Shown: positions 1,161 to 26,039 of the stretch, piece by piece
How the letters are laid out: each line of letters opens with the position of its first letter
How positions within the stretch are numbered: the first letter of the stretch is position 1
IMG/VR virus record: IMGVR_UViG_3300043427_000281
Span: 1-28,039 of that record
Reading direction: 5' to 3' (one strand)
Source of the DNA: a virus
DNA length: 28,039 bases
Made by a program: the position numbers and the translations under genes
The notes under the pieces: generated by a model
Told to the model about the DNA's origin: nothing
The model's input: the letters and a program-made list of their open reading frames with translations, nothing else
The model's database searches: none

Positions 1161-1526
1161 ATGAGCATTTGCACTCTCACAGAATCTGCCAAACACCAGA
1201 TAGACCTACTGTGTAAAGAAAACAACTGTTATGCAATCAGTCTAAACATACGTGGCGGCGGCTGTGCAGGCTTTGAGTATGACTGGGGTACAGTAGTACA
1301 CCCTTCAGATTTAGAACCAGGCGACGAAATAGTTCACACAGACCATGCTGGACGTTTTGTAGTTGGCGCACACAGTCTTATGTTTTTGATCGGAACCGAA
1401 GTTGACTATATAAAAAGTCTAGTAGGTTCAAACTTTGAAATAAGAAACCCTAACGCAAAGTCAAGTTGTGGCTGCGGAGTTAGTGTAAATTTTGATATGG
1501 ATACAATTCCACATTTTATGGAATAA
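1161..1526 (+). CDS. A-type iron-sulfur carrier, IscA/HesB/ErpA family
   Basis: A 121-residue protein, close to the usual A-type carrier length. It has the three family cysteines: Cys35 in IRGGGCAGFEY, and Cys103 and Cys105 in SSCGCGVSVNF near the C-terminus. In cellular homologues these bind an Fe-S cluster or iron and pass it to apoproteins. The start is supported by AAGGAAAGG upstream and a late promoter box. It sits directly ahead of the giant fibre gene, only 11 bases away and translationally close. Genes of this family are known in marine T4-like phages, but their role is not settled. Supply of a cluster to a virion or host protein during late infection is inference. Family assignment is firm. 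Confidence 0.92.
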   Translation: MSICTLTESAKHQIDLLCKENNCYAISLNIRGGGCAGFEYDWGTVVHPSDLEPGDEIVHTDHAGRFVVGAHSLMFLIGTEVDYIKSLVGSNFEIRNPNAKSSCGCGVSVNFDMDTIPHFME

Positions 1527-24956: not shown

Positions 24957-25176
24957 AGTTAAAGAAAAGTTTGCTTGGAGGCCTGTGCTTACTACCAGTG
25001 GTAAATGGCTATGGTGGCGTAAGTACATTAAGCGTATAAAAATTTATTGGGGGCCTGCTGGTGAAGATCCTGTAATTGATGCTGAGTTTTTTACTGAAGG
25101 AGAATGGTTATTGGAGGAGATTAAAAATCCTATTCAACCTCCTCCAATAGTAAGTTTTAAATCAACACGAAGATAA
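24940..25176 (+). CDS. small protein, tandem paralogue B (78 aa)
   Basis: Starts at 24940 or 24943 (adjacent ATGs), overlapping the previous gene by up to 17 bases; no strong Shine-Dalgarno. It reads FAWRPVLTTSGKWLWWRKYI, then IYWGPAGEDPV and FTEGEWLLEEI, aligning with the previous gene. A Pro-rich tail (NPIQPPPIVSFK) is unique to this copy. It ends 6 bases before the convergent phoH stop. The function is unknown. Confidence 0.7.
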   Translation: MMPQIEVKEKFAWRPVLTTSGKWLWWRKYIKRIKIYWGPAGEDPVIDAEFFTEGEWLLEEIKNPIQPPPIVSFKSTRR

Positions 25177-25908: not shown

Positions 25909-25915
25909 TAAGTGT

Positions 25916-25923
25916 CCTCCTTT
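25916..25923 (-). promoter_or_regulatory. strong Shine-Dalgarno of phoH
   Basis: AAAGGAGG on the minus strand, 7 bases before the phoH ATG and just after the T-run of the leader hairpin. Confidence 0.8.
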
Positions 25924-25928
25924 GGGTT

Positions 25929-25976
25929 AAAAAACAATAAGGACCGTATTTGCTGTAAGGCAAACTTGTCCTTACA
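25929..25976 (-). terminator. terminator-like hairpin with alternative fold in the phoH leader (possible attenuator)
   Basis: On the minus strand TAAGGAC (25974-25968) pairs with GTCCTTA (25944-25938), with an inner TTTGC/GCAAA stem (25964-25960 with 25953-25949), followed by ATTG and six T (25934-25929): a factor-independent terminator shape. The same TAAGG bases can instead form TGTAAGG/CCTTACA (25976-25970 with 25960-25954), a 7-bp hairpin with a 9-base loop. The two folds cannot coexist. The element lies in the leader, about 25-65 nt after the predicted start, ahead of the ribosome binding site. Confidence 0.55.
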
Positions 25977-26005
25977 AAGATATTTACCATCTAGACATAA
26001 AAGAA

Positions 26006-26033
26006 ATAATATAGTTTAAGTTTGTCTTGTCGA
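26006..26033 (-). promoter_or_regulatory. candidate sigma70-like promoter for phoH
   Basis: On the minus strand TCGACA (26028-26033, 5/6 match) and TATTAT (26006-26011, 5/6 match) are 16 bp apart. The start would fall near 25999, giving a leader of about 90 nt. The -35 shares two bases with the plus-strand late box at 26032. Confidence 0.4.
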
Positions 26034-26039
26034 TAAATA
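26032..26039 (+). promoter_or_regulatory. late promoter box GATAAATA
   Basis: CGATAAATAAC lies 26 nt before the ATG at 26066. It would drive the rightward virion/lysis-type genes. Confidence 0.7.

Follow-up and report, generated by a model that had tools for sequence, protein, structure and literature searches.

We analyzed a 28-kb virus fragment (IMG/VR record IMGVR_UViG_3300043427_000281, positions 1 to 28,039; this whole stretch of 28,039 nucleotides is called the window below). It encodes a clamp-loader-like ATPase, thymidylate synthase, a GroES-like head protein, virion proteins, and PhoH, and its closest cultured relatives are the PA5oct-like jumbo phages (54% for PhoH, 56% for the clamp loader). 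A small protein is also encoded at 1161-1526 (plus strand); its C-terminal CGCG motif, as read from the sequence, resembles A-type iron-sulphur assembly proteins, and its sole PHROGs match is phrog_17776, a family with no function assigned there.

The phoH gene (PF02562; 25183-25908, minus strand, 241 aa) is a lone gene oriented opposite to its neighbours, and this orientation is kept in the relatives. In 88 of 89 relatives, phoH is preceded by a divergent late promoter, which reads TATTTATC, and in 75 of 88 a convergent ORF adjoins the gene. In the window, the divergent promoter is the GATAAATA of the upstream virion gene (26032-26039, plus strand). Six copies of GATAAATA occur in the window, all on the plus strand and each just ahead of an open frame, a number equalled in 1 of 100 shuffles. 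Judged from these sequences, GATAAATA is a promoter of the T4 late type.

Directly after phoH, the window contains a strong hairpin (25110-25149, minus strand; 17 bp, -23.7 kcal/mol, z -5.1), which lies within the end of the convergent ORF and shows no clear U-run. A 45-nt stretch folding below -12 kcal/mol was found 0-100 nt after the phoH stop in 87 of 88 loci (versus 9 of 88 for a control region). This hairpin is probably a shared bidirectional terminator or a 3' stabiliser.

The phoH leader and its promoter

Two folds that exclude each other are available to the phoH leader on the minus strand. Segment a, GTAAGGAC (25968-25975), can pair either with segment b, GCCTTACA (25954-25961), or with segment c, GTCCTTAT (25937-25944). 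When a pairs with c, an inner hairpin GTTTGC-CTTACA-GCAAAT (25948-25965) forms, and b is taken up in its loop and 5' strand. The original prediction described both arrangements, and its pairings are present: the outer stem GTAAGGAC (25975-25968)/GTCCTTAT (25944-25937), the inner stem GTTTGC/GCAAAT, TG and then six T (25934-25929) after the outer stem, and the competing TGTAAGG (25976-25970)/CCTTACA (25960-25954). The ribosome-binding site, AAGGAGGAC, follows at 25914-25922; segment c can pair with it when free. We ran the proposed folding check with RNAfold and found both folds to be better than chance. The terminator-shaped fold reached -14.7 kcal/mol (z -3.1) and the alternative hairpin folded alone -9.3 kcal/mol (z -3.4), and in each case 1 of 200 shuffles was as good.

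Five PhoH searches of IMG/VR yielded 93 distinct 95-nt leaders; with the window, these gave 90 distinct parsed RNAs. Cyanophage phoH genes were also listed as matches; the leader comparison covers the non-cyanophage leaders. The family carrying the element comprises dozens of uncultured large phages, most of them marine. All 90 leaders share a plan of TAAATA, a gap of 4-5 nt, and then segment a (GUAGGG or GUAAGG). The 77 long leaders continue with b, the inner hairpin, and c. The other 13 were called short by the parser, and several of these have a single hairpin at +1 alone, for example GTAGAACATACTTTCTAC or GTACAATATGTCATTGTAC. As the parser used identified no clear c in these 13, strand exchange is not essential. 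In six leaders (L027, L035, L060, L072, L152, and L242), a second small hairpin, CTTACAT...ATGTAAG, directly adjoins the ribosome-binding site.

Where does the phoH message start? The sequence TAA[A/G]TA precedes segment a in 90 of 90 parsed leaders, with a gap of 5 nt (75 leaders) or 4 nt (15). A sigma70-like promoter match at 26033-26006 coincides in part with the divergent GATAAATA of the next gene, and we rejected it, as phoH is preceded by a TAAATA of its own, set at a constant distance. The candidate promoter is better read as the T4-type late promoter GGTAAATA at 25988-25981 (minus strand). The 8-bp box of T4 late promoters begins at -13 (PMC2988020), which places the phoH +1 at the first G of segment a (about 25975, minus strand). 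From this geometry and the fixed spacing, we infer that transcription starts at the first base of the hairpin, although T4 geometry may not hold for the late factors of the window phage.

Covariation of the two pairings

Segment b matched at least six of the seven bases of segment a in 66 of the 77 long leaders, versus 17.9±3.4 (maximum 29) when the inner region was shuffled and 28 when it was reverse-complemented, a control that preserves the inner hairpin. All seven pairs were present in 29 long leaders (shuffled mean 1.5, maximum 6). The 11 long leaders below six pairs mostly had five. A strict test, requiring contiguous pairing of at least 5 bp from base 1, failed in 22 of 77 leaders; about half of these failures reach 6/7 with one mismatch, mostly at position 3. 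When each 90%-identity PhoH cluster was represented by a single leader, the mean a:b score was 11.7 versus 6.95±0.36 for shuffled sequences, and the mean a:c score was 14.1 versus 8.7±0.4 with shuffled downstream regions; the shuffles ignore kinship among the leaders, a problem that clustering and the swaps described below lessen and do not eliminate.

We then swapped partners 2000 times among 11 cluster representatives whose segment a differs from GTAGGG. A leader's own b scored 14.2 versus 9.3±1.2 for swapped b, and its own c scored 16.2 versus 10.6±0.8 for swapped c. None of the 2000 swaps was as good in either case. The PhoH tree requires at least 21 changes in positions 1-6 of segment a, and the covariation is thus not the product of one inherited change. 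With the register set by GUA:UAC alone, pairs 4-6 of the b-like sites comprised 100 Watson-Crick, 71 G-U, 3 A-C, and 12 other combinations. Since G-U is tolerated and A-C hardly at all, selection acts on the phoH mRNA strand as the folding strand. Loops and inner stems vary freely; beyond the initial GUA, what is conserved is complementarity to a. When RNAalifold was applied to a 30-leader subset, it returned the outer stem only.

The compensatory changes sought in homologous leaders were therefore found, for a:b as well as for a:c. Comparison of the leaders establishes, at the level of sequence, the position of the hairpin, both pairings, their covariation, and the strand acted upon. That the mutually exclusive a:b and a:c folds are both conserved and make up a real RNA element is well supported by these comparisons. 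The part of the original prediction that described attenuator-like exclusive folds stands insofar as two such folds are conserved and covary; its attenuator reading does not (see below).

The two folds differ in stability. Fold a:c was the more stable in 54 of 55 leaders (median -14.8 versus -7.4 kcal/mol for a:b), and a:b often contains G-U pairs, which make it weaker than a:c. The upper bound of the barrier from a:b to a:c was 10.7 kcal/mol at 37 C and 13.6 at 15 C.

Hairpins at other late promoters

We wondered whether the element occurs elsewhere. In two related genomes, the covariance model was convincing only at the phoH leader. It found nothing convincing in PA5oct, whose phoH hairpin differs in sequence: TAAATAACAAT-GTAAAGATTAGATCTTTATAC lies ahead of phoH, in the same place and with different letters, and forms a simple hairpin. 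Leader L394 also has a simple hairpin at +1. In the more distant phoH genes of Atu_ph07 and Phosso, TAAATA is present and no such hairpin was found. One of the extra TAAATA-GTAGG matches (L306) was inspected and does not form the hairpin.

In G001, G002, and PA5oct, a hairpin beginning 3-9 nt downstream of TAAATA accompanies a minority of the late promoters that precede genes; hairpins with later starts are rarer (small numbers). Thus, a closed 5' end recurs on some late messages, and the phoH leader is an elaborate two-state version of it. Among the loci from these three genomes (L347-L387), a near-perfect hairpin at about +1 precedes the MTRLTTLDLP gene, for example GTACATTATAAGAGTTATAATGTAC, and a GCCGAGC...GCTCGGT hairpin precedes the MDA[LF]TLWSLVGF gene. 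In a distant relative (L391, 1390-1440), CATAGCAGCCT at the start of the transcript appears complementary to AGGAGGCTATG, which holds the ribosome-binding site and start codon; judging by these letters, the 5' end there looks able to pair directly with the ribosome site.

Possible functions of the leader

Our preferred reading, to which we give a probability of about 0.6, is that the late phoH mRNA is monocistronic and has this structured leader at its 5' end, in which a:b forms first, a:c replaces it, and the 5' end is protected. What we infer here, namely start site, folding order, protection, and translation delay, would combine as follows. RNA polymerase would start at the T4-type late promoter and make segment a first. 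As b emerges, it would pair with a, and the metastable hairpin would close the 5' end. Once c emerges, strand exchange would lead to the more stable a:c fold with its inner hairpin. The 5' end would be base-paired throughout, and the short message would be shielded from 5'-end-dependent decay. While b holds a, the free c may, in the window, cover the ribosome-binding site, and the exchange may delay translation. The element probably controls the stability or translation of the phoH message and is not an early stop signal. Because some leaders, like PA5oct, keep just a simple hairpin at +1, the core common to all would be a closed 5' end on a late mRNA of one gene. The simplest common function may then be 5'-end protection, by analogy with ompA and papA; a translation delay is possible in the window and in part of the relatives.

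Several known systems resemble parts of this arrangement. 5'-terminal stem-loops stabilise E. coli mRNAs such as ompA and papA, according to the studies listed as references 92-95 in PMC3997798. As in these mRNAs, the phoH stem would stand at the very 5' end, given its predicted start. We know of no description of a conserved alternative partner for the 5' strand of the ompA or papA stem-loops. In the late T4 genes e and soc, promoter-linked leader hairpins affect translation: early read-through RNA folds into a hairpin that masks the ribosome site, and late transcription begins within that hairpin. The phoH messages would likewise be T4-like late transcripts with leader hairpins; however, the phoH hairpin begins at the predicted +1, and the upstream gene is divergent.

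By analogy, the nearest mechanism would be that of the hok mRNA (hok/Sok, plasmid R1), in which a metastable 5' hairpin forms first and yields to a stable fold, as outlined in PMC6733600; covariation support for this folding path is credited there to Gultyaev 1997. In both leaders, an early metastable 5' hairpin would give way to a stable fold, and covariation supports the path. We found that the phoH leader, too, has an early local fold and a more stable late fold that share one strand, both conserved. In contrast, the hok pairing sequesters the ribosome site and keeps a toxin mRNA inert, whereas the stable fold of phoH stays local, with the ribosome-binding site more exposed; kinship between the two was compared by Rfam scan only. 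The maturation-gene leader of MS2 would be similar with the opposite sign. In this phage leader too, translation depends on a transient fold instead of the final one (PMC6733600), as we suppose for phoH. However, the MS2 transient fold is translatable, whereas that of phoH would be less so, and MS2 is an RNA phage with no promoter.

Could translation itself be the target? The leader may be a kinetic switch whose nascent form is OFF (a:b paired, c on the ribosome site) and turns ON as a:c forms, with the timing under selection. We consider this possible and on balance doubtful. In its favor, the ribosome-binding site was less accessible by more than 0.2 with a:b than with a:c in 24 of 55 leaders and the reverse was seen in none, and the frequent G-U pairs weaken a:b relative to a:c. 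In the window, the duplex of c with the site has a predicted energy of -9.2 kcal/mol, and c, free in the a:b state, can pair with the site in this model. Moreover, AC follows GGAGG in 75 of 90 phoH leaders versus 3 of 44 GGAGG sites of ORFs in two related genomes. This AC matches the GU of GUCC in c and lengthens the match, an excess that common descent could explain. One leader (L270) shows a paired change, GACC in c with GGTC at the site, the sole such case. On the other hand, c reads CCCTAC in many leaders and pairs weakly with the site, some leaders have no c, and refolding is possibly too fast to matter. Swapping ribosome sites between leaders made no difference to c:site pairing, a result that is uninformative because the site is nearly invariant. 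The c:site pairing thus lacks independent support from covariation.

The leader could instead be bound by a protein with a preference for one of the folds; candidates are PhoH, acting on RNA as an ATPase, and a translational repressor of the phage. PhoH-family proteins have been linked to RNA metabolism, with RNA modification noted for one group (PMC3037559), and the element is specific to phoH, as the sole convincing model matches in the two related genomes are phoH leaders. We nevertheless find this unlikely: loops and inner stems vary, and there is no fixed recognition sequence beyond the initial GUA.

The terminator shape seen originally suggested a transcription attenuator, in which a:c and the T-run terminate and a:b lets RNA polymerase through. 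The window does have a mutually exclusive, antiterminator-like fold that covaries, and its stem is followed by TGTTTTTT, in the window alone. The six T (25929-25934, minus strand) are peculiar to the window and do not reflect a conserved terminator. The run of six occurs at this site in no relative; of 9 nt there, 7 are T in the window and 2-4 in most relatives, and the four nearest sisters on the tree (L002, L009, L013, and L023) read TTCTTTAAT, with 6 of 9 T and no run of six. In addition, the base of the stem is weak (GUAA), a terminator scan did not list the stem, and the predicted start is the hairpin's first base, so there would be no leader transcript ahead of the hairpin. Attenuation is therefore very improbable, and this part of the original prediction is not supported.

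We give almost no credence to a ligand riboswitch, the other architecture proposed at the outset: two exclusive folds do lie ahead of the ribosome-binding site, but the related leaders have no strongly conserved unpaired core of the kind that would bind a ligand, their conserved feature being complementarity to a, and Rfam 15 gave no match at gathering score in the window or 20 related loci, while a lax threshold brought up no credible match near the window leader.

The phoH gene is widespread in marine phages, and in the open-access literature, the scope of our search, we found no description of leader control of phoH. A cis element on the phoH message, with a reduced form in the cultured phage PA5oct, makes its function testable. 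It is also a natural case of two competing RNA folds that are both under selection, of value for work on cotranscriptional folding, and a useful test case for covariation methods, only one of the two folds having been detected here. A further idea, which we rate as rather unlikely, is that the leader is a folding-time clock: each new message would have a closed 5' end and a covered ribosome site, and could be translated only once the strands had exchanged. If so, the delay would be set by the barrier from a:b to a:c, and hence by the temperature of the sea.
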